DNA from: Amyloporia xantha
Lineage: Eukaryota > Basidiomycota > Agaricomycetes > Polyporales > Adustoporiaceae
Assembly (NCBI GenBank): GCA_036971615.1
Contig: JAYKKR010000004.1
Location: forward strand, 1 to 64,000
DNA length: 64,000 nucleotides
Reading direction: 5' to 3'
Positions 1 to 16,102 of this stretch are shown one piece after another. How positions within the stretch are numbered: the stretch's first letter is position 1; each line of letters opens with the position of its first letter. The translations under genes were made by a program, and so were the position numbers. The notes under the pieces were generated by a model. The model was not told where the DNA came from. It saw only the letters and a list, made by a program, of their open reading frames with translations, and did not search any database.

Positions 1-1453
1 ATGTTGCGATGCTCGCTGCGAAATGAATATCATGAGTGAGCGGATATAGAGACGAGGATGGTGAGTGAAAGACGCAATAACGCGCATCGGCCCGAGCGAA
101 CGGAAGCGCGATATGAGCGTATATTTATATGCATGACGTGGACGACGACGGACACCAGTAACGCGCTTCCGCGGAAGCGAACGGAAGCGCGATCTGGACA
201 CCTATGTGGTGTGTGCGCACGACGTGGATATGACCAACACGGGGCCGATAACGCACTTCCGCACGGCGATGCGGAAGCGCGATATATACGCTACATATAT
301 ATATATATACACGCACGTGATCTATGTGACGCTAGAAGCGTGCGGAACGCGCTTCCGCACGGCCGTGCAGAAGTGGGAACGGGGCACAGTAACATAAAGA
401 AAAGAAAAGAAAAGACTTACAAGACGTTGGTCACGTCCGAAAGGGACCACGCGTTGAGGTCCTTGTCCAGACCGTACCGATGCTGCGGATGGACAGTGAT
501 GCCTTGGAATCCCATCTCGGCCAGCTGCGTCGAAAACCAGAGGAGAAAGATCTTGACGTTGTGGGCGCTGAGGCGGGAGTCTTTGCGCGTCGGGGCGACA
601 AAGGTGACGCTCTCCTTGGAGCTGTCCAAGAAGTCGTTTGGCGCAAAGGCCACCCATAGCTCCTCGTCTCGACAGCGGCCGACGTACATCATGCGCCCGT
701 CAGGGTTGAAACCCATGTCCCCGTGCTTGGCGCGCCATTCGCGATAGGGCTGCTTGAGGTCCAACTCGAGAGTGAAATGACGATCGGAGAGTACGGTGGG
801 GAGACAGGCGTCGAGACCCATACCGGAGGGAACGCACCGCATGTAGTCGATGAAGTGGTTGTCTGCGGTCCACTTGAGAGACTTGTCGAGGGTGGGGATG
901 ATGAATTCGTCGTCGACGATGATGGCGGTGCGTTTCTTGAGGACGTTGACGGCATGCTCTGTGCTGCTCGCGGTGCGGGAGAGGGCTGCGTTGCGCAAGA
1001 CGGACAGGGAGAGCTTCTGCTGATAGGTGCGATTCCACAAGTTCTCGTTGTTGGCGTCGTGGTTGTCGTCGAGGACGTCCTCGCGCAAGACGTGCTCGAG
1101 GACCTCGCTCTGGTCTATGTGGGTGTCTGCGGTGAGGCCATCTGGGAGGTCGTCCAAAAAGAACGGCTGGCGGCGCGCGGAGAGCACGTCGTCGAGACAT
1201 GCAGAGCTGAAAGAAAACGAAGATATATTTAATAAGTTGATAGACGAGAGGATGAGGACGTACTTTGCGTATTGCTGAAGGACTTGGTGGGGCAGGAGGT
1301 CCGGGGCTCTCGAGTCTTCGTCAACCTGTGCGCTGGAGGTTGAAAACGATAAGAATACGAAAGAAATGAGAGAAAAACGAGAACATACTGGGAACTGCGA
1401 GGAGGAGGAGGAGGAGGAGGCATGCGAGCTGAGGACGAGGTTGCGACGGACAT
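1..1453 (-). CDS. Unknown multi-exon protein, 3' end outside window
   Basis: I do not recognise this protein. The start chosen is the ATG at 1453 (MSVATSSSARM, then a proline run). A short intron follows, whose acceptor just before CGCACAG keeps the frame into AQVDEDSRAPDLL. A second intron lies at about 1200-1258, then a long exon runs down to about 425. That exon is rich in acidic and aromatic residues (for example the segment WTADNHFIDYMRCVPSG) and shows no transmembrane run. It ends TNVL followed by TAA, but that TAA lies inside a consensus donor GTAAGT, and TTTCGCAG, a good acceptor with a CTCAC branch-like site upstream, occurs at 16-23 on the minus strand. The more likely model is therefore a 410-bp intron (16-425) with the coding region continuing outside the window; a simple stop at 417 is the alternative. 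The intron holds palindrome array A. The next gene upstream has the same orientation and the same kind of intron arrays, so the two may be related in origin. Confidence 0.55.
81..377. repeat. Palindrome array A (4 copies) in an intron
   Basis: Four 30-bp imperfect palindromes lie at 81-110, 162-191, 252-281 and 348-377, spaced 81, 90 and 96 bp apart. Each has the plan CGCGCWTCCG, ten loop bases, CGGAWGCGCG. This array is the most diverged in the window: the first copy has CATCGG, the third starts CGCAC, and the fourth ends AAGTGGG. A short AT microsatellite sits at 294-310 between copies 3 and 4. The array lies inside the predicted last visible intron of the leftmost gene. Confidence 0.85.
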
Positions 1454-2405
1454 GTTGGCTTAGAACAGAGTGGGAGCTGAGCTGACAGTACGAGACTCGA
1501 GAAGATGGGAGGAGGAGGAGGAGGAGGAGGAGGAGGAGGAGGGGGTCAGTGACACGTCTGAATGAACTGGTAGACGAACCGGTATGGATCGGTCCAGGCT
1601 GGGACATTAATTAGTGTGTGGCAACCAGGGTTGGATGGGAGGGAGATCGGAGAAAATTAGTGTGGAGCATCGGCTATAGTGCTGAAACAGGGGAGAAATG
1701 TTAACCATTGAATTGATTGAACGGATAGTATGGGTACCTTGGGGATACTACATGATGGTGCGTGTACGCTGTGAGTACAGTGCAGCTATAGGACGAGTAT
1801 GAAGAGCGTGAACGGAGAATGAGCGGGCGGAATCGAGGACTTACTACGAAGACGAAGATGATGATGATGATTTGATCGAGTCGGACGAATCGGAAGCGAG
1901 AAGTGGAAGCCGGAGCGGAAGACGCGCAGGAATCTTGAGATAAAGTAATAAGCGAAAAGATGGAGAGTATATTGAGAAGATGATGGGGATGAAACAGGGG
2001 CGTACGCAGATCGGGCGCAGTATGGGATCGAACGGTATCGGTCGCGATGAGATAAACATGAATGCATTGCGCGTAGATAGCGACGGTAATACATGAGTAC
2101 GAGATTACGTCCGAGTGCGATATATGGACGGGGCGTAGCGAAGACGTACATGACGAGAGAGGAGAGAACGACGATACAATTACATGAGTATGATGGGTTG
2201 AACCATCTGCGAGGGAACGTAGTTGTACAGGAAGAATCATGCATCATATGGGTTGAACCATATGATGATGCAATAAAGACGAGAAATGTACGCAGCGTGG
2301 AGACCCTCAGAGCTCGTTGATCGTGTCGTCATTCTCTTCGTGAGCAGGCAGAGAGGCTGTGGTGAAGGATAAGGGGAGTCAGATCGCGCGTGCTGGAGGG
2401 TTCGG
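1454..2405. other. Intergenic stretch with purine-rich microsatellite
   Basis: No gene is assigned here. A GGA/GAG trinucleotide run lies at about 1510-1545, directly upstream of the leftmost gene. A GAT run at about 1857-1872 gives open frames on both strands (acidic on plus, Ile/Ser-rich on minus), but none has convincing start, splice and codon signals. The sequence AACCATMTGMKRDRG recurs near 2200 and 2250, giving a small local duplication around the motif gggttgaaccat. Confidence 0.5.
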
Positions 2406-5400
2406 TTAGCTCTGAAGGGAGAGCTGCTCACCGAGGAAACTTCCAGACGGGCGAGCGGAGGTGTTGCCTCCACCGCGAACGCCACTGCCACCGCGAACGC
2501 CACCGCAAACACCAATGGCAAGTCCACCGCGACGAGGACGAGGACGAGGAGGGCCCGAGGGTTCCATGGGGCGAAGAGAGGCTGCACGGCGGGGCAGCTC
2601 TCTACGTGGAAGAGGGGAGGCGGGGGGAGGCGTGGGGGACGACCTCTGGGAGAGGGTAGGGGGGGTCAAGGGGCGGGAGGGATCCTGAGTGAAAGGATGG
2701 TGGAAGAGGTTGGTGCGGCGGGGTGGAGGAAGAGGGTTGGCGGAGGAGGGGGTGAACATGTCAGGGAGCTGGCTGCCTTGCTCAGCGATGACCGAGGCCT
2801 GCGTGTTGTCTAAGGAGCGAAGGCAACAACAGAATTGTCAGAAATGTATAGGTATATATACGAGACGGAGAAGGTGCCGATAACGCGCATCCGCCAGAGC
2901 GAACGGAAGCGCGTCAAACGGCTTAGTATGCACGAATAATATTCGATATGACGCGCTTCGGCCCGAGCGTACGGAAGCGCGTCACGCGGGGGTACATGAA
3001 AATACTACCCCGTATATCGCGCTTCCGTTCGATCGTGCGGATGCGCGTCGAACGAATATATGTGTGCACACCACGCATGTATCGCGCTTCCGTTCGCTCG
3101 GGCGGAAGCGCGTCGTACGGTCCATATTGGAGTATAGTACCCCGTATGACGCGCTTCCGTTAGCTCGTGCGGATGCGCGTTCGATGGAGTGTCCGAGCAC
3201 ACTCTCGAGGTGCGTGGATCGCGCTTCCGTTCGTCCGTGCGGATGCGCGTTCGACGCACCAATACGATACATATGTGTGTCTCGTTCGCGCTTCCGTTCG
3301 CTCTGGCCGAAGCGCGAAACGAGACACACAGAGGCGAACATGTTTACTCACCGATGAAGTTGTCGTCCATCTCTTGGTCGTCGTCATCAGGCTGACCGGG
3401 TGCGAAGAGCACGTCACCCTGGATGTCCTGCTGCTCCTGGTGCGCAGACACGCCGGGCTCAGAGGTCGTCTTGCCCTTCCCCGTGTCGTCCCCCATCTCC
3501 GCATCCTCCTCCTCCTCCTCCTCCTCCTCGTTGCGCTCAGGGGTCTCTCCACGGCGCGGACGCTTCTTATCCGGAGAGGGTGTCGTCGCCTTTTTCGAAT
3601 TCTTGGAGACGTTCGAGTTGCTGCGCTTCTTGCCCGCAGGCCCACTCTCCCCCTGTCCATCTCCGCCTCCTTCGCCTTGCTCACCCGGGGCCTCCGGTTC
3701 ATCATCCCCACCCTCCTCTGGCTCTGGCTCTTGCTCTTCCTCCTCATCGTCGTTCTGCTCCTGCGTCAGCTCCGGCTCACCACCAGCATCACCAGCACCT
3801 TCAGGTGCAGCAGCAATCTCTGCCATGGCCTTCTTCTTGGCAGCCCGCCTCGCCCGTTTCTTCTCCTCCTCCTCCTGTTGCAGCGCCTGGATGTGGGACT
3901 CCTCGAGGTCCATCAGCTCCTTCAGGTCGGTCTCAGTAGGTACGTCCTGTGAACACATATAAAAATAATAGGTCAGATGTCGGTATCCGTCTCTCTCGCA
4001 CGCTCAAACGCACCCAAGGATATTCAAAGCGATCCGAGTATTGCGCATTGGGCAGCTGCAGCGAATTCGCGTCGTACGTCTTGAGCAGAACGGAGGCATC
4101 GAGCCGCTCCGTCCAGTTCTCGGTAACTTGACGCTCGCGATTGTGCGCCACGGTACTGACGATCGCCTGCGAACACATTATAATGAGAAGTACGTCAAAG
4201 TACGCGCGCGCGAGAGAGAGACACGATCGCTCACCTTGTGCATCTGGCGCATCGTGAACGCGACCAGTCCGTCCAGCGGACGCGTCGTTGGATCCTCGTC
4301 CACGTTATCCTGCGTGACCAGCCGAACCGACGGGAGGTTCGCGATCAGCGTGATGAGACGCTTCGCCTCCTCCAAGTCGTGGTCCGCCTGATCCGAGATC
4401 TCCAACGCCGAAAGGTCCTTGACGGTCTCAGCGGCCTTGCCCTTGCCCCGGCTCTTCCTGACTGGCTTCGCTGCTTTCGACGCCGACCCAGAAGCCTCCG
4501 CCTTCCGCTCATCTTTCGCTTTGGCCCCGGCCTTCGCCTGAGTCGTTCCACCGGACGCACGACTCGTGCTCTCCGCCATCGCCGTCCCTGCCGCCTTCTC
4601 CAACCTCTTCTTCTTCTCCTGATCCACCACGTCCATCTGTTTCTTGCGCTGCGGGTTTGCCTCCCGCGTTTCGGACTCGACCCACGTCGGATTCGACACC
4701 TCCTTCGTCTGCTTCGTGAGATCGCACTCATCCCACCACTCGAACTTGACCTCCGCAGACGAGTCCATACCCTCCGACATGATCTTGGCGATATCGTCCC
4801 GCAGATCCAGGACGACCGGAGGCGTCGAGTCGAACATGAACGCACGGAAGTGGCTCATCTCCAGAGCCGTCACCACCGCCATCGACGAGATGTCCCGCCG
4901 GAGGTTCTTGAGGCACGTCCAGCCCTTCCTGCCCGTCTTCGGGTCCTCCGCCAGCTCGCCCTCCACGGCATGCCCGAGAACCACAACGCTCGCCACCCGA
5001 ACAGACGCTCGACCGTCTTGTGGTCCTCCCGAGCGACGAACTCGTTCCGCGCATCTATCAACGCCGCCACGGTCTGCACGAGCGACCTCGGCGCCATCAC
5101 CTTGTCGAAGTCGATGTACTTGAGGTACTCCTTCGCACTCTCCACTTCTTCCGCCGACGGCTCCTTGACGCGCGTCTTCTTCCACCCACTCGACCAGAAC
5201 ATCGCGAACATGCCGGTCCCGAGCTCTTTCTTCGTGTTCAAACGGCTCCAAGTCGCCGACTCCGGCATCAGTCTCCAGTGCACGTCCAGGAACGACGCCG
5301 CTTCGTCTCGCGTGCTCCACACCAGCCTGGCCAGCCTGGCGCACGTCTTCTCCACCTGCCCCGGCATGATCCCCGGCCATTGCTCGATCGTGTTGAACAC

Positions 5401-8199
5401 CGTCAGCCAGTGGTCGGCGATGAACTCGGTCGAGTTCGTCATCGACGTGCACAACACGAACGGTTCGATGAACCACGCGATCTGTAAAAAAGAACACCCG
5501 TCAGCATACCCATAGCGTCGTCAGATCGCGCTTCCGTTCGCGCTGGCCGATGCGCGAAAACGGAGGCCCCCAGGTACGTCGTCCGATAGACGTCGATATC
5601 GCGCATCCGCTCACGCGGGCGGATGCGCGTCATTCGACGTTCATACACACGCACGTGTGTCGTCACGCACTCGTATGACGCGCATCCGCCCGAGCGAGCG
5701 GATGCGCGATATACGCACCTTGTGCGCATTCAATCGAGGTGCGTTTGACGCGCTTCCGTTCGACCGTGCTGAAGCGCGTCAGACGCACCTCTCGTCACGC
5801 ATACACAAAAATATGTCCCGATATCGCGCATCCGTTCGCTCGGGCGGATGCGCGTTATCGGACATATTGGAACAGTATAGAAAAATGTTCACTCACCACA
5901 GACCATCCCGACGAGTACAGCTGCAGCTCGCTATCCAGCGACGCCAGATACGCACGGGACAGGGGCGGAGGAGGTATGAACAGGTCGTACTCGTACATCT
6001 CCGCAGGCAGCGGCGTGTACAGCATCTTGATCCGCGCTAGCACCACCTGCCGGAACGCCTTCTCCTCCTCGTTCGCCGCCGGGTTCCGCTGCCAATGCCT
6101 CCAGACTGTCCATCAGCTGCACGCTGATGTCCTCCAGCTGCTTCTGCGACGCCTCCGTCGTCTTCCCCAGCTTCCAGTCCTCTGTCCGCACAGCAGCACG
6201 GAACGCACCGTCAGCAAGAACCATCACCGCGTCGTCCTGCCAAACCTCCCAATCAGGCGTACCACGCATCATCAGCATACGCTCCTCGTGGTACCCTATC
6301 CACGACAGTCGCTTGCTCAGTCGCGTCATCCTCGCATGCAGGTCCTCGTCCCGGTACTGCTTCTCCAGGTCCTCGAAGTCCTCCATCAACTTCCGCTGGA
6401 GCTTCGAGACATCCGCAACAGTCTTCATCTCAGAGTGCACCTCCTTCGACCCCAGCAACCCCATGATGTCCGACGACTGCTGCCCCAGGAACACGAACAG
6501 CTGCAATATATATATTTTTCAGCACATGTCTCTCCATCGTAAGCACGCATACTCACCCCGAAGTGCGTCTTGAACATCGTCGTCACCTTCTCGATCCGCA
6601 GGTACGGCGATTGCAGGAAATCCCGCCCGTATCTCGTAAGAGACATCAGGAACTTCACCGCCCGCGGGTGCGCCCACAGCCGCGAAGTGATTCGCGTGCT
6701 TCCGACGCGATTCCCCGTGCGCGACCGCACATCGTTCAGCTCCTTCGCGAGCCTCGCATCGAACTTCCCCGGGACGCGGTCCAGCTCCCGCAACGCACGC
6801 AGCGTCATCAGGAAATACTCGTCCTCCGTCTCGTAGAACCGATGCATCTCTCGGTTCCGAGACAGATGCAACCCCATCTCCGTACTCAACTTCTCTGTAA
6901 TGCGTATTAATAAAAACATCCAATAATAATAATTCAATCGCACACTCACCGTAGACGTACACCTCCGCCGACCACATCGCCTTCTCCTCCAGACGTGCCC
7001 GAGCCTTCTCGTACATCTCCACCAACTTCGTCAGCATATCGTTCTCCACCTCCGTCCGCGCCGTCTTCGCTCTCAGCAACTCCATCTCCGCCTCCGCCTT
7101 CACGTACGAGTCCAGCAAACGCTTGCAGTACATCGCGTTCGCCTCCCTCCGGTGGTGCCCACCGATGATGTACACCTCCGCCGGCGCCAACGTACCGTCC
7201 TCCAGCTCCGCCCGCGCACTGGGATCGATCTTCAGCTCCGGTAGAAGGTGTCCGGCCCGGCGCTGCAGCTCCCGAGGCGTCAGTGTATCGTCCAGGAACT
7301 TCTCCGAGATCGCGATCTGGATCATGTTCCCCGCTAGCAGCCCACCGTGCTCGACGTTCAACTCCGCCAGCAGCCGAGTCGCCTCCATCTTGTTGATCGG
7401 CCGATCGTTCCACTGGTGCGGAACGAACACCATCCCCAACTCCTTCGCGAGGAAGTCCAGCAACGGCACCCGCACATGCCCGTACAGCGCCTCCGAAATC
7501 TTCGCCTCCAGCTTCGCCACCTCCTCCCCGCGTTCCTTCGAATCGTCCGTCAGCCCGATCGCAGTCGTCATCTTCCGCAACGCATTCTAGATCCCCGTAC
7601 GATCGAACGTCAATATCACATCCAGCCCGATCATGTTAATCTTACGTACCTCCGATCTCTCCGCTTCCCTTTCCGCCTTCGTCTGCTCGTCTTCCTCCTC
7701 CGCGGCCTCCTCCCCGTCCTCATCCTCACTCTCCCCGTCCCCGTCGCTCACCTCCTGCGCCTTCTCCTTCCCCTTCCCCTTCCCCTTCGCCTTACCTTTC
7801 GCCTTCGCCTTACCTTTCTTCTTCCCCTTCGCCACAGGAACAACCTCCTCCACCTCCACCACATCGTCCTCGTCCTCGTCGATGACTGCGCCAACTTTCG
7901 ACGGCCCAGCAATCGTCGCCTGCTTCACAGGCGGCGCAGCAGGCTTCGACTGCCGACGTGGCGGCGCATACCCCTGCGGCACCCCAGCACGCTGACCGCG
8001 CAGCGTGATCGGCCGACTCAGCTGCGTCACAGCCGGCACTGTCCACAGCGTTATCCATGCACACTCTCATAGGTATATGCTACTCACCTTCTCCTCCTCC
8101 TTCTCCTTCTCCAGAGCTGCTATCAATCTCCTCCACCTCAGGAGGATCTGGTTGCTTTCGGCGGCGGCCTCCAGTTGTCGTCGCTTTCTTCGGAGGCAT
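2406..8199 (-). CDS. Large unknown protein with ParB-like segment and charged linkers
   Basis: This long multi-exon gene starts at the ATG at 8199 (MPPKKATTTGGRRRK). Its order is: a Lys/Glu-rich tail (8042-7653); then 7588-6955, containing MVFVPHQWNDRPINKMEA, a helix ELNVEHGGLLAG and VYIIGGHHRREANA, which follow the layout of ParB-type domains (entry strand, HG helix, GxxRxxA motif); then helical exons at 6900-5900 and 5481-4230; an exon at about 4170-4000; an acidic, Lys-rich exon at 3958-3352; and a Pro/Arg/Gly-rich last exon at 2809-2406 ending FLGEQLSLQS. Nuclear-type low complexity suggests DNA or chromatin contact, but this is inference. Two introns are unusually long, 5482-5896 (415 bp) and 2810-3351 (542 bp), and both are filled by palindrome arrays. 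Two apparent +1/-1 frame changes occur near 6,090 and 4,975 with no usable splice sites, so the copy is either decaying or carries assembly indels. The exons are clearly GC-rich relative to genes further right. Confidence 0.5.
2884..3316. repeat. Palindrome array B (7 copies) in a 542-bp intron
   Basis: Seven 30-bp palindromes lie at 2884-2913, 2952-2981, 3018-3047, 3083-3112, 3150-3179, 3220-3249 and 3287-3316. Start-to-start distances are 68, 66, 65, 67, 70 and 67 bp, a nearly constant period. Flanks are self-complementary around several copies. The best is the last, where TGTGTGTCTCGTT precedes the palindrome and its reverse complement follows it with one extra A. Copy 6 is flanked by GGTGCGT and ACGCACC. 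The donor at 3351 reads GTGAGTAAACA and the acceptor at 2810 reads CTCCTTAG, so the array fills most of one intron. Confidence 0.9.
5527..5854. repeat. Palindrome array C (5 copies) in a 415-bp intron
   Basis: Five 30-bp palindromes lie at 5527-5556, 5600-5629, 5679-5708, 5749-5778 and 5825-5854, spaced 73, 79, 70 and 76 bp apart. Copy 4 is flanked by GAGGTGCGTTTGA and, in reverse complement, GAGGTGCGTCTGA (12 of 13 matching). Copy 5 is flanked by ATATGTCCCGATAT and ATATGTCCGATAA in reverse complement. Copies 2, 3 and 5 use the CATCCG/CGGATG version of the arm. The host intron runs from the donor GTGAGTGAACA at 5896 to the acceptor TTTTTTACAG at 5482. Confidence 0.9.
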
Positions 8200-8329
8200 G
8201 CTAAAGGTACGTCTCAGTCTCAGTGTGGAAGTCGAGGCGTATCGAACGACCAACGCATCCCAGCGCCCAGTCGATCGATACGATCACTCAACTCTCACAG
8301 TCACATGCATCGCCCGCACGTGCCTTCTT

Positions 8330-8718
8330 CGCGCATCCGCATGTCCGAACGGATGCGCGATATCGAGGGTATATTTGTGGTCTACACAAGTGCGCAGATC
8401 GCGCTTCCGTTCGCTCGAACGGAAGCGCGATCGACGGGGTAAATATATCCCCAAATGTATAGCCCCAAAGGGCAAAACGCGCTTCCGCCCACTCGTGCGG
8501 ATGCGCGTTGTTTGCACTTTGACACTACACACATTTACCCCGTCGATCGCGCTTCCGTTCGATCGTGCGGATGCGCGTTCGACGGGGTATATGTGTATAG
8601 TACTCGAGTGCCTCGAACGCGCATCCGCACGAGCAAACGGATGCGCGTTCGTGCATATACTTCACTTCTGTACATTCAGTACTACGTTCGCGCTTCAGCA
8701 CGCTCTATCCGAAGCGCG
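8330..8718. repeat. Palindrome array D (6 copies) in the 5' flank of the ParB-like gene
   Basis: Six 30-bp palindromes lie at 8330-8359, 8400-8429, 8478-8507, 8548-8577, 8618-8647 and 8689-8718, spaced 70, 78, 70, 70 and 71 bp apart. Copy 4 gives the best hairpin: 8530-8595 folds as an 18-position outer arm (two T/T mismatches), then the 10-bp core arm, with a 10-nt loop. The right flank of copy 2 (CGACGGGGTAAA) is also the reverse complement of the left flank of copy 4, so longer-range pairing is possible. TTTAG lies one base upstream of the ATG at 8199, so this array could also sit in an intron of the 5' leader; I could not fix a donor. Confidence 0.85.
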
Positions 8719-8920
8719 TTCTTTTCTCTCAACTCGTATATTTACGGTATAGTACCCTACTGTACAGGGTTTCGCTACGTAAATGTACCTCCCCACTCCT
8801 AATCGGACCTACCCAAACCCAGAAGGGAGGTAAGTGTACCCCAACCCAGTTACGAAAACCCTATATAATCAGTGGTTTGATCCTGAGTACGAGGTAAAAT
8901 CTGAGCATAAAGCAAAGAGA

Positions 8921-10867
8921 ATGCCCGCACTACCGCACTACATCGAACAAGGCCTTCTCAAAGGCAGGCTGTTCGTTAACAAAACGCTAGCCAATATGCC
9001 AGAGTCGCTGGAGTCGGAAGACCACCTTAAGCCGCTCGGTCCGAATCTCCGCCAAGTTCGAGATTTCTTGAAGGCTCACGACTACATTGTGACGCCTACA
9101 GACAAGAATCTGGGAATTGCGGTGTCAGAGCGCACCTGGATCATCTCTCAAACCTTGGAGGTGCTGTCAAATGCTAAGGATTATCGACGCCTTAACAGAT
9201 TAACAGCCAACGAAATCCTTCGAGAAAAATGTGCAGAAATGAATGCGTTGGCAGACTTAACTGAGGTCTACCTTACGCTTGAGGAGCCGTTTAACCTGTC
9301 AGACTTTTTGCGGTCTAAGATAACACCGGCAGGTTCGAGTAACCATCATATACCTGTATTCTACGGTATACCTAAAATTCACAAATATCCTGTGAAATTT
9401 AGGCCGATAATTCCATGTCACTCGGCCATTCAAAATCCTGCGGCTAAATTCGTTTCTAAAAAACTCAAACCGATTGTCGAGTCGGCGCCAACCATTTTAC
9501 ATGGTACCAAACACTTGGCGATAAAATTGAGTCAACTGAAGTTGCGTCGAGATCGCCGCTGGTACATTGTTACTGGCGACGTCGTCGCGTTCTACCCAAA
9601 CATTCCTTTAGACAAATGTCTGAATATTGTTAACGAGCTTTATCTCGAGCATTATTGGAGTGCGGATCCGGAACGCGGCGGAGCAAATCATGCTAAGAAG
9701 GTCCAAGAAATCTTCAAACGCTGTCTCGAGGTTGGCAACACTAGGTTGCTTACACAGTTTCAAGGTGTTTTATATGAGCAATTGCGCGGCCTAGCAATGG
9801 GCGTTGCGGACTCACCGGATCTAGCTAACCTGTATGGTTGGTGGTTCGAGCGCAAATGCGATATAATGAATAACGATCTAGTCCCTTTCTACGGTCGTTA
9901 CATCGATGATTGTTTAGCGATTGTCTACGCCTCTAGTGAACAAGAGGCGTTGGACATTATCTCTTACAATATTCACTTCGATGGCTGTGTTATTGAGTGG
10001 AATGTATCGCATCGGTCTCAGGTGTTCCTGGACATGACGCTCTACAAAGATGAATTTGATAGACTGCAGCACATGCCATACCGCAAAGCGGCATCCCACC
10101 AAGAAAGGATTCCATGGATATCTCATCACCCTCTCGACGTAAAGAGGGGTACCTTCATAGGGGAGATGTCACGGCTTGCCACCCTGAGTAGTACTAAGCA
10201 TACTTACTTACAGGCCATGCAGGGCTTGGTCGCCCTGTACATGTGCAGGGGGTATCCCGAACAACTCGTGACTCATTGGCTGAAGAATAACATCTCAGAA
10301 CGATGGGAAAAACGGCTCAGTGTACCGCGTGACGGCGGTGAGCCTAAGGCGTCGCAAGGCGTTCTTGTACTGAAGTCTGAGTTTAACGAGGCATGGAACT
10401 ACTTTCAAGCGAAAGAGCTTGGAGACGTCATCACAGGATATTGGCGTGAGTGGTGCACACGCGCCGCCACAGGGGACTGGTCACCAGAATACCCGTACGA
10501 GGACCTTCAGTCTGGTCGAGCCTCATTCGACGCCGCGGCGAAATTCGGCAGTTGGCATGTAGGCGAGGAAACTAGATTTGTTGATATTCGTAAGACTGAT
10601 ATCCTAGACCGTCGCTGGTTAGTGTCTCGTAAAAGAACACGAAACTTAGCCGACATCGCAAGTGTCTGGAAAAAGATGATTCTCGAAAAGCTGGACGAGC
10701 GCGTCGTCAACGAACAATCTGCGGAAAGTTCGTCAATGACGGCGCACCATGTTCAAGGCGGTTCGCAGTTACCGTTTAGTCAGCCGGGGGAAGTCCCTGG
10801 GGTTTCTGACGACGATACAATTTATCTGCACCGTCACTCGCCGGACCCATTTGGGTGGGCACATTAG
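8921..10867 (+). CDS. Reverse transcriptase, Penelope-like, no endonuclease domain
   Basis: Predicted RNA-dependent DNA polymerase of a retroelement. The first ATG in the open frame is at 8921 (MPALPHYIEQGLLKGRL); the frame is open back to 8834. Motifs in order are: TPTDKNLGIAVSERTW in the N-terminal part, as in PLE RTs; IPKIHKYPVKFRPII (RT motif 2 region); GDVVAFYPNIPLD (first catalytic Asp); GLAMGVADSPDLANLYG; FYGRYIDDCLAIVY with the catalytic YIDD; VFLDMTLYKD; and WISHHPLDVKRGTFIGEMSRLA in the thumb, a region typical of PLEs. About 150 residues follow the thumb, but I see no GIY-YIG motif, zinc finger or catalytic pattern there, so it looks like an endonuclease-minus type. The reading frame is intact over 648 codons, so the copy may be young. 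Codon use is more AT-rich than in the flanking GC-rich gene. Confidence 0.85.
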   Translation: MPALPHYIEQGLLKGRLFVNKTLANMPESLESEDHLKPLGPNLRQVRDFLKAHDYIVTPTDKNLGIAVSERTWIISQTLEVLSNAKDYRRLNRLTANEILREKCAEMNALADLTEVYLTLEEPFNLSDFLRSKITPAGSSNHHIPVFYGIPKIHKYPVKFRPIIPCHSAIQNPAAKFVSKKLKPIVESAPTILHGTKHLAIKLSQLKLRRDRRWYIVTGDVVAFYPNIPLDKCLNIVNELYLEHYWSADPERGGANHAKKVQEIFKRCLEVGNTRLLTQFQGVLYEQLRGLAMGVADSPDLANLYGWWFERKCDIMNNDLVPFYGRYIDDCLAIVYASSEQEALDIISYNIHFDGCVIEWNVSHRSQVFLDMTLYKDEFDRLQHMPYRKAASHQERIPWISHHPLDVKRGTFIGEMSRLATLSSTKHTYLQAMQGLVALYMCRGYPEQLVTHWLKNNISERWEKRLSVPRDGGEPKASQGVLVLKSEFNEAWNYFQAKELGDVITGYWREWCTRAATGDWSPEYPYEDLQSGRASFDAAAKFGSWHVGEETRFVDIRKTDILDRRWLVSRKRTRNLADIASVWKKMILEKLDERVVNEQSAESSSMTAHHVQGGSQLPFSQPGEVPGVSDDDTIYLHRHSPDPFGWAH

Positions 10868-11848
10868 TACCTGCGTTGGTGAAAACTGTAGCCAGCGTGT
10901 GGGAGGGTGTGTCTGCTAGCGAGTCAGCCAGCATGTGGCTTTTATTTGTTATACTCTGGAGACTATTCTGTTCGCCCGTTGGCGGTCTCCTTTACATTCT
11001 CAGAAGTGTGGAAGGCGCATAACTGGGCCTGAGCCTCTCTTTGGCGGTGCCGCTTGCGGATGCCTCTGATGCTCGGGGGGAGGGTACCACGACTACTCTT
11101 ATGGATGAACTGACCCTGTGCGGCAGTCCTGCGACCGTTGTATAACTGATAATTTCATGTGCTGTAGTTGGCAGCCCGCGATTCGAATGGTAGTTCCTCA
11201 CGAGCTCTGATTCAGTGTCTTTCAGCTGTTTCGGAAGGGGGGAGATCAGCAACTCTTTCGCTACCTCACTTGCAATATCTTGTAAGTACCACGGTTTCTG
11301 TGTACATAACAGACGGTATTAACCGAGGCGTTTTACCTAATTTAACCTAACCAGAACCTAACCTAACCGTGCGTATATTCCTTAATCGGAAATACAATAC
11401 TGTCGACTTATTGATGTCGTAATAGTAACCTAATCTAACCGAACCTAACCTAACGGACCTAACGGTCCGGGCCAGGTGCGTAGTCCTTAATGCAATTAGC
11501 GCCGGGGTAACGTGACTTCGTCACGTGACATGGGGCGTCTAATATACGCGCTCGATGACGTCATGTTCTAGGCCAGCCTGGGCCATGACGTCAGGGGTGG
11601 CACATGTGATTGTATGAATCACATGCACCGGCTCGGCTACTTCGGTGTTTTCTCGGAGCGGCGGAACGCCGACGGAAGGAAGACTTGCCTTAACGGGCAA
11701 CAGATCTAGGCAATGACATCATAGTCCGATGCCACCCGATAGCGGGATTATGCTATTGGCTCGGACTTCTCGGCATGTATTAATAAGATATTATGCCGTC
11801 GTACCACTTTTCAAAGTCGTACGATGCGAGGAAATTCTCGCTTGACTA

Positions 11849-11920
11849 AGCAAGGGCCTGATGAGTCTATAAAAGACGAAATGGGTCGGTGTTGGATCCC
11901 CAGCACCTCATTGCCCAGCT
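11849..11920 (+). ncRNA. Type I hammerhead ribozyme, copy 1
   Basis: The core CUGAUGA is at 11858-11864 and GAAA at 11878-11881. Stem II is GUCU/AGAC with loop AUAAA. Stem III has A81-U911, U82-A910, G83-C909 and G84-U908, a three-base bulge, then an 8-bp helix GGUGUUGG/CCAGCACC closed by AUCC (numbers are the last three digits of the coordinates). The cleavage triplet is AUU at 11910-11912, so cleavage is predicted between 11912 and 11913. Stem I is GGGC/GCCC, then an internal loop, then AGC/GCU. The AUU triplet satisfies the NUH rule but is rarer than GUC, so activity may be slower. It is most likely used to process the element's transcripts. Confidence 0.85.
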
Positions 11921-12118
11921 CTGTCCCCCGCTCCTCAGCAACTTCCTTCGATAAGGTCGCCTTCGGCTCCCATATCTCAGTCGTCGCTTCGTCGCTCCAC
12001 CACCTAACCCCTAAGCACCTCATTGCCTAGCTCTGTCTCCCGCTCCTCAGCAACTTCCTCCGCTAAGGTCGCCTTCGGCTCCCATAGCTCCGTCGTCGCT
12101 TCGTCGCTCCACCACCTA
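11903..12118 (+). repeat. Internal tandem duplication of about 108 bp
   Basis: The block from GCACCTCATTGCCCAGCTC to CCACCTAACC is followed at once by a diverged copy starting GCACCTCATTGCCTAGCTC at about 12015. The second copy carries only the 3' strand of the hammerhead (stem III end, cleavage site and stem I), so it cannot form a ribozyme. The break lies within the ribozyme's stem III, very near the cleavage site. Confidence 0.8.
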
Positions 12119-12617
12119 ACCAGAACCTAACCTAACCGTGTGTATATTCCTTAATCGGAAATACGATACTGTCGACTTATTGTTGTCATTACAGTAACCT
12201 AATCTAACCGAACCTAACCTAACGGACCTAACGGTCCGGGCCAGGTGCGTAGTCCTTAATGCAATTAGCGCCGGGATTGCGTGACTCAGTCACGTGACAT
12301 GGGGCGTCTAATATACGCGCTCGATGACGTCATGTTCTAGGCTCGCCTGGGCCATGACGTCAGGGGTGGCACATGTGATTGCATGAATCACATGCACCGG
12401 CTCGGCTACTTCAGTGTTTTCTCGGAGCGGCGGAACGCCGACGGAAGGAAGACTTGCCTTACCGGGCAACAGATCTAGGCAATGACATCATAGTCCGATG
12501 CCACCCGATAGCGGGATTATGCTATTGGCTCGGACTTCTCGGCAACTATTAATAAGATATTATGCCGTCGTACCACTTTTCAAAGTCGTACGATGCGAGG
12601 TAATTCTCGCTTGACTA

Positions 12618-12689
12618 AGCAAGGGCCTGATGAGTCTATAAAAGACGAAATGGGTCGGTGTTGGATCCCCAGCACCTCATTGCCCAGCT
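12618..12689 (+). ncRNA. Type I hammerhead ribozyme, copy 2
   Basis: All bases of the fold match copy 1 at an offset of 769: CUGAUGA at 12627-12633, GAAA at 12647-12650, AUU at 12679-12681, with predicted cleavage between 12681 and 12682. The element copy ends only about 30 bases past the cleavage point, after CCCCGCTCC. This suggests the ribozyme marks the functional 3' boundary of the unit. Confidence 0.85.
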
Positions 12690-12711
12690 CTGTCCCCCGC
12701 TCCCTAAGCTT

Positions 12712-13069
12712 CACAAACAGGAGATATTCATAATCAGGATAAGGAGACACATCAGCAAAACCCCACTTTTTCTTAGCCCACTTAATTTCTTAATTTCCTT
12801 AGACAAGAACAATAAGACACAAATTGTGAAAATTAAGATGCATTAAGACAAAATTAAGAGTGAGGATCATTCTTGGCTGTCTTAGATTTGTCTTGATAAG
12901 AAGGTAAGACCTGATAAGGTCAGTAAGGAAAATGTTGAGTTTTCCTGATGCAGAGAGACTGATACAAGAGCTCATGACACGGCGATGACATTCATACAAC
13001 AACTTTTGTACAATTACGAGACTAGAGAATACTCACAAACTGGCCGTTGCCAAAGGCTGAAAACAACGA
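12712..13069. other. AT-rich intergenic spacer
   Basis: This spacer separates the retroelement from the 3' end of the next minus-strand gene. It is AT-rich with several AATTAAG/CTTAATT words in inverted arrangement (12778-12860). I see no gene or RNA. Confidence 0.5.
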
Positions 13070-15157
13070 TCACGGAGATGATACGTAGTCGGGATCCTGC
13101 GACGCCTCTTGTGACTCGGACTCCTGTCCTTGAGATAAGTCGTTGTCACTGGTGATGACATGGTCGACGTGTGCAGCGTAGTTGTCGCGGTTGTCATATC
13201 GCAGACGCTTGTAGGCCGAACGAATTTGGGCACGATCCTCGTCATCGAGTCCACGCTTGAGCGCCTGAAGCTCCGCGACTCTTTGGGCAGAGAGACCATT
13301 TTTCCTACCCATGCCGGCGGGGGCAGAGTAGGATTGTATAGCTTTGGCCCAACGATCTTCAGCCGTGTGCTTGGCACCATCGATCAAATGTTTCATGAAA
13401 ATGGTGGTGGGGTCATTGGACTCGAATGGAGGGTCGTCCAAGTCGATTTGGTCGTCCAAATGACGCTGGAGTTCAGCTGAGTCGAATAGGCCCTGTAGAA
13501 AGGACACCTCTACTGTCTGTTGATATATACTTGCTCTCACCTCACGCATGGTGGCAAACCAGTACTGCAGAAAGCGTTGGTGCATGACGAGCTCAGGTGG
13601 ACTTGAGGTCGACCAATCTCGCAGTGGCTGCAAAAGCATTCAACAAAATCTTTTGAGTGAAATACCGCACAACGAGCGACTCACCGTAGCTCTTCCGAGA
13701 GTGATCCACGTGTCGATAGACTTCTGCAAGTTCTCTCCCAACAATTTGTAGTCCTTCTCGCCGTGGAAAATCATCAGGTACGCCGTTACCGCCCCCACCA
13801 GTTGAATTCCGTCACGTATCCAACCGCGGGTAATGCATTCTGGTGAGGGGTCGAGCTCCCAAAACCCTTCGTGACTCTTGGCCTTCAATTTTGCCAGTTC
13901 TTCTTTCCGGATGTTCTGCTCTTTGATGTAAACGACAACAAAGACGGAATCGGAGATTGGCTCGTTCTTCAGGCTGGTGACTGCCCCAGTCCCAGTCGCT
14001 TCCTCGGGGGTGCTCTGATAGGATGAACCCGATAGCGAGGTCATGGACGACTCGCCGCTGAGCACGCCGGCCTCCGGCGACTGTTCATCCTCTTCCTCCT
14101 CCTCCTCTCCCTCTTCCTCCTCCTCCTCCTCTTCCTCTCCTTCCTCTTCATCCTCCAGTCGGGCATGAATATTGGTTTCCAGATCCTTTGGCAACGTCAT
14201 GTTGTGGAACGTCTAAGCCATGTGAGCGTCGCATCACAAATTCAACACAGACCATACGTACCTTGAACAAAACGTGAAACAGACTCTCACACACAGCCGT
14301 CTCCAGATATAAGAGGGATTCGTCGCAAGCCACTCGGTTCCTGGTGCCGACATGGCACTCTCGAGTCACGAAGAGGTCGGGCACCTCAGTGTGCGTGGGC
14401 TTCAGGATTCTCTTGCCATGGTCAGCATGAATCTCGGACCCCTGCAGAGGGTGTCTAGCGTCGAATGCTCGAATGACATCGTTGACGATCACCTCGTTTG
14501 CTGCGCTGATGGCATGCTGATGTAAAGATGTCGGCGCGCCGGCAGTAGCCTTATTTGCTTCTACATTGTAGACAAACCTATGGGGAGGGGTAGAGGATTT
14601 ATCATTTAGGTCTCCAATGGGGATGTATGGTGAACTCACCAGAATCTGTAACGCTCTACGAGTTCAGAACAGGAGTCCAAAAGTTCCGTCCTGAGTTCCT
14701 TCCAGTCGTCGCGCGAGACGTCGGACGTAGTCTGTCAGGGTCGCAATCAGTAGCATAACCACTTCGAACAACGCTCTCACTAACATGTACTTTGTCGTAT
14801 ATGTAGGGAAAGTCCGGATCATCCAGCAGATCTCCCAAGACCTTTGCGATGTGTGGCAAGGATTGCACAATCTCTTTGAGGGAGGGTTCCTCGTCTTTAC
14901 TGGGATGATCAGAAGGGGCTTCTGGGATGTGTTGTAAGCAAACATCTAGTCGTGCAACAAGTATGGTAGCACTTACTGATGGATCCGAAGCTCAAATCCA
15001 GGCGATGTAGGGGCGATGAGTCCTCCGAGAACTCAGACTCGTCGTATGGAGAAGAGTGTATAAGACAATACTGGGTACTGAGCCCGTCAATGGGCTCAGT
15101 GTCCGGAGGCCACTGAGGATGTACGTGAGGGAGATCCATGAGGGAGGAAACAGCCAC
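13070..15157 (-). CDS. Unknown acidic protein, about six exons
   Basis: I do not recognise this protein family. The start is at ATG 15157 (MAVSSLMDLPHVHP; the second Met six codons on is also possible). Reading through: SFGSI, intron GTAAGTGC...CCCAG, KAPSDHPSKDEEPSLKEIVQ, FPYIYDK, intron, TTSDVSRDDWKELRTELL, intron, FVYNVEANKATAG, VPDLFVTRECHVGTRN, ESLLYLETAVCESLFHVLFK, intron, TFHNMTLPKDLE. An almost pure Glu tract follows (14160-14070), then a Ser/Thr-rich linker, then FVVVYIKEQNIRKEE and a final exon ending DPDYVSSP. All junctions keep frame, so the gene looks intact. The Glu tract and charged C-terminus suggest a soluble, possibly nuclear protein. No enzyme motif or transmembrane segment was seen. 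Confidence 0.6.
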
Positions 15158-16102
15158 GCCAAGTTAAACATTCCTCAAGGCCGTACGGGTTGGCAAGTGA
15201 CGCAATGTCTCTAGCCTGGCTGACATAGCAGCTCGTCCAACTCATCTCTCGAAAATCACCTCACACCCATTGCCAGGCAACATACTTGAGAAAATGAAGA
15301 AAACGAGACTGTTAGACTCCGAGGGATTAGGGCTGCGAAACTCTGCTCACTCGGTGATAACCTACTGTTTCCACTCGGGTTGGATCCTGGTATGGGTGAT
15401 GACTGCAGGCTTGAGCAAAAAATTGAAAAAAGTCATGAGCGTTTCTGTACATGTATCCATAGCCTGTACGAAATGTTTGGGCACGAGAATGGCTCGCACA
15501 TGCCAGGAAATAATACACTTACTTACACCCTGTGCAGCGCGGGTGGGCGCCATGGCTTCGATGCAGCACGGTCGGATTTAGCCGTGTCCGAATGCCTTCA
15601 AACAAACGACTTGGACAGCTCACAGCCCCGTATCTCCAATATCTCTTGCCAGTGAAAACCTTTGTCCTCTCTTCCTCGCTATGTCTACTTCAACCCAGGC
15701 TGTGGCACGCCCCATCCAACAGCGGGTTAGGAAGAGCATCCGGACTTTGGCGGAAACGTTTCGCGTCAAAAGGTGAGCAGCTCCATATCCATGATCCGTA
15801 CGCGAACAAGGATTCGCTTGGCTTGTGCGGATGGCGAGTCTTGTACGACTCTCCGATGCTGGCTTATGAGGGGCTTAGGGTACCCAATGGCCGGTCATCA
15901 AAGAACTCAGAGGCGTGGCGTCCGACGCTATAGGACTAAGCCGTCCTCTGTCGTTCTTCACGATATCCTGTCCTAGACAGCTTCATGAGCCAGTTTAATC
16001 CTTATTATAGGCCCATCTGTACGAACATGATGATGCATTGTTTCCTTTGGTCGTGGATCGTCATTACTTCGTGGTATCGGACATCGCTTGCTTTATTCTC
16101 AA
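15158..16102. other. Intergenic, no gene recognised
   Basis: This stretch has only short open frames. I see no start, splice and codon pattern that holds together, no repeat, and no RNA gene. It may contain the promoter of the minus-strand gene on its left and the 5' leader or a small upstream exon of the F-box-like gene on its right (CCATAG near 16132-16137 could be an acceptor). Confidence 0.4.

Follow-up and report, generated by a model that had tools for sequence, protein, structure and literature searches.

What could long, regularly spaced palindromes be doing within the introns of fungal genes? The question is raised by one end of contig JAYKKR010000004.1 of Amyloporia xantha, of which positions 1 to 64,000 (the window) were analysed. 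A preliminary description made from the letters of this stretch had counted 22 copies of an inverted repeat, each with two 10-bp arms around a 10-nt centre, grouped in four arrays, and had placed these arrays in or next to two adjacent genes.

Palindromic dyads in the window

The number and the position of these repeats were confirmed. A search with the pattern CGCGCWTCCG-N10-CGGAWGCGCG, allowing up to three mismatches, returned exactly 22 matches in 64 kb (four in array A, seven in B, five in C and six in D; Table 1) and none in the other 55 kb of the window, as had been reported; in 100 dinucleotide shuffles of the 64 kb there were 0 matches. Successive dyads are 81-96 bp apart in array A, 65-70 bp in B, 70-79 bp in C and 70-78 bp in D. 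When the first 8,870 bases of the window were scanned for inverted half-site pairs within 40 bp, with two mismatches allowed per half-site, the gap was exactly 10 in 21 of the 22 pairs found. The genome-wide search that had been proposed as a check found the exact pattern 195 times per strand in 46.8 Mb, the reversed control having 0 matches, and the sites are neither random nor aperiodic. Single sites of the motif were also found in 23 bacterial or archaeal contigs and in two viral contigs, and look like chance occurrences.

The gene models bear out the claim that introns of two neighbouring minus-strand genes in a fungus contain such arrays, since arrays A, B and C lie within GT-AG introns. 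Those of B and C come from a 10-exon model of gene 1 whose GT-AG junctions keep the frame; intron C joins, on both sides, the shifted frame of the window copy, which is out of frame between about 6112 and 5000. Intron A was read from the window together with the same intron in a longer copy on contig C34, and its exon ends have homologous counterparts in the related families X2 and X3 described below. Array D is, as previously stated, upstream of a start codon, 131-519 bp 5' of the gene-1 ATG at 8199. An Rfam scan of positions 1-16000 gave nine matches, all to microRNA models and under the gathering score, eight of them on the palindrome arrays.

Table 1. Features at the left end of the window (positions in the window)
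Feature	Position	Strand	Remarks
Element X1	1..8869	+	left side cut by contig start; fixed right end ...GTACCCCAACCCAGTTACGAAAACCCTATATAAT
Gene 2, 5' part	1..1453	-	probable start 1453; other copies continue left past the window
Array A, 4 dyads	81..377	.	gene-2 intron about 16-420, GTAAGT...CGCAG
Gene 1	2307..8199	-	10 exons
Array B, 7 dyads	2884..3316	.	gene-1 intron 2810-3351 (542 bp)
Array C, 5 dyads	5527..5854	.	gene-1 intron 5482-5896 (415 bp)
Array D, 6 dyads	8330..8718	.	between gene-1 start and the fixed right end of X
Element Y, neighbouring and separate	8870..12010	+	reverse transcriptase frame 8834-10867

A repeated subtelomeric element and its genes

The two genes are indeed present, but the preliminary description missed that the genes hosting the arrays are those of a repeated, mainly subtelomeric mobile element, here called X, and that the adjacent reverse transcriptase belongs to a separate element, Y. 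X is about 16.3 kb long; its right end (...CCCTATATAAT) is fixed, and its left side is truncated to varying extents. A unit of 16,275 bp was found at C34:1998550-2014824, and the full unit carries five arrays, four of them internal, whose starts are 2.6-2.8 kb apart. A query with the right end gave 41 matches, of which 40 reach the last base and differ in left truncation; 36 are no more than 100 kb from a contig end, 37 face inward, and the last dyad of array D is present in 33. All 36 listed right-end junctions continue into non-telomeric DNA, and at the 16 junctions with a comparable X-free site the base just before the junction is T in 14 cases, preceded by A (AT) in 11. At the left end, the start CATCCAG is common to three copies, i.e., two in tandem in C34 and one at C23; upstream of it the C23 copy differs from the C34 copies, apart from ...AAT, and three further predicted left ends failed to match. 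The reverse transcriptase of Y is, by its motif, probably Penelope-like, and most of the right ends of Y and of a further element, Z, that were read continue into CCTAA repeats.

Both genes of X run antisense to its fixed right end. Gene 1 is under purifying selection (dN/dS of 0.06 and 0.09 for the window copy against two other X1 copies), and its exon 3 holds an N-RP...GG[QH]HRxxA block, GGHHRxxA in the window, together with a probable coiled coil; the GG[QH]HRxxA part is common to X1, X2 and X3. Gene 2 is conserved in four families. In the exon frames scanned, neither gene has a Pfam match at cut-off, and neither gave a DNA-binding domain by Pfam, NCBIfam or PDB match. Among 5.8 billion proteins, no homologue of region 160-640 of gene 1 was found in the 7,993 most-word-sharing candidates scored, and the C-terminal exon of gene 2 gave a single homologue (P0121, 56% over 66%) in the 7,997 candidates scored; no gene-2 relatives were found in viral contigs. 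AlphaFold models had low confidence for gene-1 exon 3 (pLDDT 45) and for the gene-2 exon (pLDDT 32), and the PHROGs search gave weak matches alone, mostly across the coiled-coil stretch.

Four families and their dyads

Besides X1, the genome holds three diverged families, X2, X3 and X4, whose gene-2 blocks are 28-52% identical. Family-specific dyads of fixed geometry, located in noncoding DNA, are established for all four. The X2 dyad is GGAATAGCGTCC-N2-GGACGCTATTCC, and that of X3 differs from it symmetrically, a G-to-T change in one arm being mirrored by C to A in the other; the X4 dyad is GCGGCATTG-N12-CAATGCCGC. Exact sites per strand number 55 for X2, 17 for X3 (counted with the pattern GGAATATCGT-N6-ACGATATTCC) and 10 for X4 in the genome, and reversed controls gave 0 in each case. 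Scanned at 4-5 mismatches, X1 holds no X2, X3 or X4 dyad; conversely, the X1 dyad matches X2 at four places, each with 5-6 mismatches, and X4 at none. The preliminary description recognised the regularity of the arrays and missed that related families have other dyads; it is therefore the arrangement that is conserved, not the sequence.

Each family has one sharply preferred spacing of inverted half-sites among gaps from -5 to 40: 10 in X1 (23/27 pairs), 6 in X2 (26/31), 6 at the X3 locus, which includes an X2 end (28/29), and 12 in X4 with a 9-bp half-site (15/34, the next commonest class being 5 self-overlaps). A search-limit artefact was considered for the 30-bp length of the X4 dyad and rejected after a scan with wider gaps. 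The same gene-2 intron position, between the same two exon blocks, bears dyads in the four families. Dyads follow each other at 52-53 bp, i.e., five helical turns, in 12 of 18 X2 and 12 of 12 X3 cases; the X2 test left out two gaps of more than 120 bp, and its p-values overstate independence because some X2 units arose recently by tandem duplication (96% over 52 bp). The X1 spacings show no helical phasing (p about 0.11).

Within arrays, the half-sites are better conserved than their surroundings. When the arrays of one copy are compared, identity over the 20 half-site bases is 90% in X1, 98% in X2 and 90% in X3, against 26-35% for the 16-bp flanks, and large-block copying therefore fails as an explanation. 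Across X1 copies, variation is 0.020 in half-site cores, 0.062-0.082 in the centres and 0.041-0.078 in the spacers; the 151 bases after array D (0.026) are about as invariant as the cores and the 16 bases before it (0.005) more so. In 19 collinear X1 copies cores and spacers differ only by a factor of about two, and among 80 shifted masks one was equally low. Six of 30 D arrays align to that of the window at less than 0.8 identity and are thus rearranged or diverged. The X1 cores are the least variable of the three classes although they are CpG-rich.

Possible roles of the arrays and known systems

The arrays may serve a telomere-associated mobile element as DNA recognition sites that mark its copies as its own, a reading to which we would give about an even chance. 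The presence of a different palindrome in each family suggests that each marks its own DNA for a protein that it encodes. A dimeric DNA-binding protein encoded by X would then take one half-site per subunit and load along the arrays, so that the promoter and gene bodies of X would be kept active against host silencing and the rest of the genome spared; in each family, protein and sites would have changed together. Anti-silencing is a putative role, the likeliest among several that sites of this kind could have. From the sequences we infer both that an X-encoded protein may bind the dyads and which gene would encode it: gene 1 is the favoured candidate, because the divergence between X1 and the other families is far greater for it than for gene 2. 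Between X2 and X3, dN/dS is similar for the two genes (0.22-0.26 for gene 1, 0.16-0.21 for gene 2), so that for this pair it is not clear that gene 1 is the partner that adapts.

Instead of controlling chromatin, the dyads could serve mobilisation, by loading a replication or integration complex or by packaging. Array D occupies part of the last 540 bp before the fixed right end, its last dyad is widely retained there, and X inserts with a T or AT preference; nevertheless, four of the five arrays in the full unit are internal, in introns or probable introns, whereas an end-recognising enzyme would need subterminal sites alone, and Pfam recognised neither a transposase nor a reverse transcriptase among the scanned X frames, which makes this use unlikely. 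Somewhat less probable still is that X exploits sites for an insulator, telomere or transcription protein of the host. The mainly subtelomeric location of X and the promoter position of array D would agree with it; however, the dyads of four families in one genome are unrelated or altered, and different host factors would therefore be needed.

We give the least weight, in equal measure, to RNA hairpins and to amplification without function. Hairpins, e.g., in unspliced plus-strand RNA or in long introns, would be in line with arms that are 92% complementary over 10 pairs in the X1 sites of the window, with a symmetric change in one X1 site (GCGCTTTTG/CAAAAGCGC) and between the X2 and X3 dyads, and with outer arms slightly more complementary than re-paired arms in X1, X2 and X3. 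This excess is not significant, however (293, 162 and 756 of 2000 shuffles at least as high, respectively); complementarity over 14 pairs is 72.5% for 78 distinct X1 sites, a figure equalled or exceeded in 998 of 1000 shuffles and lower than the 75.5% of re-paired arms, and inner pairs 11-14 are anti-paired in the 22 window sites (1994 of 2000 shuffles at least as high). Mismatches of the A-C type number 86 and of the G-T type 68, so neither RNA strand is clearly favoured. The inverted repeat of the preliminary description is real; since significant covariation is lacking between the arms, however, its centre does not have to form the "10-nt loop" named there. The dyads could also have multiplied neutrally, through gene conversion, slippage or recombination driven by hairpins, as the tandem 52-bp units of X2 and the rearranged or diverged D arrays would allow; against this, half-sites are nearly identical between arrays with unrelated flanks, the copies differ less in cores than in spacers, and one intron position keeps dyads in four families despite the changed motif.

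If self-recognition is the right reading, mobile elements at the chromosome ends of fungi acquired the sequence-specific marking of own copies independently, with long dyads that change their sequence between families while a strict geometry persists in each; X would also be a new type of element, one that builds subtelomeres together with reverse-transcriptase elements. Four families in one genome form a natural series for following the joint change of protein and site, and bear on the recruitment of intron sequence as regulatory space. It is possible, with rather less confidence, that X represents a hitherto undescribed superfamily, giant elements associated with telomeres that move with no recognisable polymerase or transposase and have genes antisense to the fixed end, a fast-changing dyad code in introns and, in each family, a protein that recognises its own copies only. 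The preliminary description knew of no such fungal element, and the portions of the literature that were searched likewise contain no description of an element like X.

The likeness to an interspersed palindromic array holds for the regular spacing of palindromic repeats, as in CRISPR arrays. X arrays differ in lying in eukaryotic introns and in having the variable centre inside the repeat; moreover, the neighbouring frames, going by the gene models, are genes of X, and the D-array spacers align among 19 collinear copies, i.e., they are common to copies and not acquired. ParB-parS partition systems also have palindromic sites in clusters, and the likeness of gene 1 to ParB is confined to a motif: a search of the genome with the ParB_N profile (PF02195), accepting E values up to 10, gave 0 matches (the control was positive in 11 of 14 genomes), and an hhalign profile comparison with E. 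coli YbdM aligned 30 columns with a probability of 2.1%. Membership of gene 1 in the ParB family is therefore not supported by profile.

Penelope-like elements such as Coprina/Athena and Terminons form telomere-proximal chains with a fixed end and truncation on the telomere side, and attach through telomeric repeats at the RNA 3' end. X shares the telomere-proximal chains and the fixed end with variable truncation on the telomere side, and adjoins an element with a Penelope-like reverse transcriptase. In contrast, the genes of X run antisense to that end, which at every listed junction is without telomeric repeats, unlike most of the Y ends read. No reverse transcriptase was seen in X frames by Pfam or by eye, the one present belonging to Y; the profile test is weak, because Pfam also missed the enzyme of Y.

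The proposed self-recognition would operate much as in the VANDAL transposons (MULEs) of Arabidopsis. According to two reports, their VANC proteins bind motif arrays in intron, intergenic and terminal noncoding DNA and act in sequence-specific anti-silencing, with different motifs in related families (PMC5735166, PMC10398659). X differs in its fungal host, its telomere association and fixed right end, and its lack of a recognisable transposase or Pfam match, and its putative binding sites are long dyads with a fixed geometry; a comparison of the scanned exon frames with Pfam profiles gave no match at cut-off that would point to VANC or a MULE transposase. What both have in common are family-specific motif arrays in the noncoding DNA of the element itself, in X the introns and the upstream region, and motifs that differ among related families, in X as four types of dyad.

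Dyad arrays and the repeated element that carries them

The carrier of the dyad arrays is a repeated element, X1 (or X). The preliminary description of 22 palindromes in four arrays was borne out, since the pattern CGCGCWTCCG-N10-CGGAWGCGCG gives 22 matches in the window at up to three mismatches, at 81-377 (array A), 2884-3316 (B), 5527-5854 (C) and 8330-8718 (D), and none in 100 shuffles of the window. The genome-wide search that it suggested detected 195 exact sites per strand (46.8 Mb, 60 contigs), versus none in the whole genome for the reversed pattern. An asymmetric subset of the dyad is found at 107 genome sites (42 forward and 65 reverse); among the sites listed, every contig that has it also has a match to the X right end.

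In the regions examined, the sequence to the left of window position 8869 recurs in copies that share one right end but are truncated to different extents on the left. A query of the 190 right-end bases has 41 matches in the genome, of which 40 reach the last base and 33 span from query base 1 or 3. In the stretches examined, 36 right-end junctions were read (terminal 21 bases, one mismatch allowed), each with a flank of its own, apart from one tandem pair and one repeated target. Taking contig ends as reference, which are not always chromosome ends, 36/41 matches lie within 100 kb of an end and 37/41 point away from the nearer one; of the four oppositely oriented matches, three lie 411-444 kb inside C34, the contig whose base 1 begins the window, and one on C42. 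Telomere-type TTAGG/CCTAA repeats terminate contigs C1, C5, C9 and C11, and on C9 a truncated X copy runs directly into them. The repeats at these four contigs are mainly of this five-base unit, which is unusual for a fungus.

The left end of X is read from a tandem pair and one further copy. The tandem pair, on C34, has a repeat unit of 16,275 bp that contains five arrays, and its start, CATCCAG, is also found on C23, there beside a different upstream sequence. The left part of a long copy contains a 17-bp minisatellite (CGCGAAGGCGATCGTTG and variants, L018:1451-2955), and diverged relatives of the left part were seen at C12:2324194-2324913, far from both contig ends (79%), and at C59:1229716-1229883 (83%).

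For 16 junctions, a comparable copy of the flank free of X exists; T immediately precedes the junction in 14 of them and AT in 11, the two exceptions to T coming from one diverged alignment (87%) and one short alignment (up to 82 bp). The fixed right end, the left truncation and the short terminal identity resemble the outcome of target-primed reverse transcription. X itself yielded no reverse transcriptase, and it may be mobilised in trans by Y or another element. The reverse transcriptase that adjoins X belongs to this separate element, Y (window 8870-12010), which has 53 matches, some on contigs without a listed X right end, e.g., C22 and C27. Its frame, which Pfam did not recognise, shows 44-60% identity to the best 120 of 397 relatives, a few of which are named from Armillaria, Psilocybe and Mycena; a motif and the ends of Y suggest that it is Penelope-like. 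Most Y right ends that were read continue into CCTAA repeats, unlike the right ends of X, from which these repeats are absent. Y carries a duplication in its right part, at window 11345-12703 (590 bp at 97%). Another repeated element, Z, alternates with X at C5:8204-11931 and C5:28113-31629 (L005-L008), and its right ends continue into short CCTAA-type sequence; near the C5 telomere, the minus-strand frames of L005:2800-5600 appear helicase-like by eye.

Genes of X1 and position of the arrays

Support for the gene models (see table) comes from splice signals and from conservation between copies and between families of one genome.

Gene features of X1
Feature	Position	Strand	Remarks
Gene 1	8199 to 2307	minus	Ten exons; GT-AG introns, two long and the others 49-75 bp
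Gene-1 long introns	415 bp (array C), 542 bp (array B)	minus	GT-AG gene model
Gene 2	Probable start 1453, extends left past the window	minus	Intron ~16-420 contains array A
Array E	X 4895-5100		Apparent further gene-2 intron

Three of the arrays had been assigned to introns, and splice signals sustain this for A (gene 2) and for B and C (gene 1). Array E, outside the window, also looks intronic, but the reading frame of the C34 copy is open throughout it, so that it could be exonic.

Gene 1 is out of frame in the window from about 6112 to 5000, between two indels, and the C34 copy has a frameshift at a different place; either decay or assembly error could account for these. Excluding the out-of-frame segment, with no frame repaired, the window copy differs from the C5 copy by 30 synonymous versus 6 nonsynonymous changes (dN/dS 0.06) and from the C34 copy by 16 versus 5 (dN/dS 0.09). 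Judging from these ratios, gene 1 was probably functional until recently. The pieces of gene 2 show 0 to 3 synonymous changes between X1 copies, too few for dN/dS.

No Pfam match at cut-off was obtained for the scanned frames of either gene. In three families, exon 3 of gene 1 retains a block, N..RP..GG[QH]HRxxA, together with a probable coiled coil. This is reminiscent of ParB, but the ParB_N model had no match and the similarity in profile comparison was weak.

Related families and conservation within the dyads

With the C-terminal exon of gene 2 as query, four diverged loci were found in the genome (40%, 36%, 31% and 31%). Three were compared, X2 (C17), X3 (C10) and X4 (C57); the fourth, on C15, scores the same as C57. 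X2 has 26 sites of GGAATAGCGTCC-N2-GGACGCTATTCC at up to five mismatches, in six arrays. X3, whose locus adjoins a truncated X2 end, has 16 sites of its own dyad, which matches that of X2 except for a single symmetric change in each arm. In X4 the dyad is GCGGCATTG-N12-CAATGCCGC, sparsely distributed with 13 sites at up to three mismatches, and half-site hits number 47 versus a mean of 10.5 and a maximum of 20 in mononucleotide shuffles. Exact sites per strand in the genome number 55, 17 and 10 for X2, X3 and X4. Each family shows a sharp preference in the gap between half-sites, which is 10 in 23/27 X1 pairs, 6 in 26/31 X2 pairs and 28/29 X3-locus pairs, and 12 in 15/34 X4 pairs; with half-sites of 9 or 10 bases, the dyad measures 30 bp in X1 and X4 and 26 bp in X2 and X3. 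One and the same pair of gene-2 exon blocks encloses dyads in all four families (judged for X2-X4 from the blocks). The array-bearing introns of gene 1 show no simple correspondence between X1 and X2/X3, as far as one weak exon match shows. The right end of X2, read by eye at its join to X3, is ...TACCCCAACCCATTTAGAAAAACTCCCTATAAT, close to that of X1.

When arrays of a single copy are compared, identity over the 20 half-site bases is 90% in X1, 98% in X2 and 90% in X3, versus 26-35% for the 16-base flanks. Array D was aligned from 30 of the 36 junctions (three were too short and three were removed by name), leaving out those below the identity limit. Across 24 X1 copies, non-major bases have a mean share of 0.020 at half-sites, against 0.082 at the centre and 0.078 at spacers; the 19 collinear copies give 0.020, 0.062 and 0.041 in that order, and of 80 shifted masks one reaches a value as low as the half-sites. 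Low variation alone does not mark the half-sites, as the 151 bases that follow the array (0.026) and the 16 that precede it (0.005) vary about as little or less. At CpG positions variation is 0.018 in half-sites versus 0.088 in spacers. As for a hairpin, no significant covariation between the arms was detected; complementarity of the outer arms slightly exceeds that of re-paired arms, and for the inner pairs of X1 it is lower. On this pattern, a protein dimer that would read two half-sites is a better fit than a hairpin. Spacings of 52-53 bp, five DNA turns, make up 12/18 in X2 and 12/12 in X3, and no helical phasing was found in X1 spacings.

Comparison with known systems

No element of this kind was found in the open-licence literature, as searched by titles and the beginnings of abstracts, a scope that makes its absence weak evidence. 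The telomere-to-telomere paper on Agaricus bisporus notes Penelope-like elements close to telomeres as well as RecQ helicases in subtelomeres, and the word palindrome is absent from its main text.

The closest likeness is with VANC21/VANDAL21, studied by Hosaka and colleagues. VANC21 is reported to bind introns as well as intergenic and terminal noncoding DNA, and the motif arrays evolve together with the protein (PMC5735166, PMC10398659). By analogy, a protein encoded by X would do VANC-like work at the dyads. Gene 1 would probably supply it, and is favoured because between X1 and the other families its single frame match is weak (24%, E 7e-4), as against many matches for gene 2 (28-52%). The two genes differ little in this respect between X2 and X3, with blocks at 45-75% in gene 1 and 46-91% in gene 2. 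What both systems have in common is a changing site that is repeated in the noncoding DNA of the element and is different in each related family.
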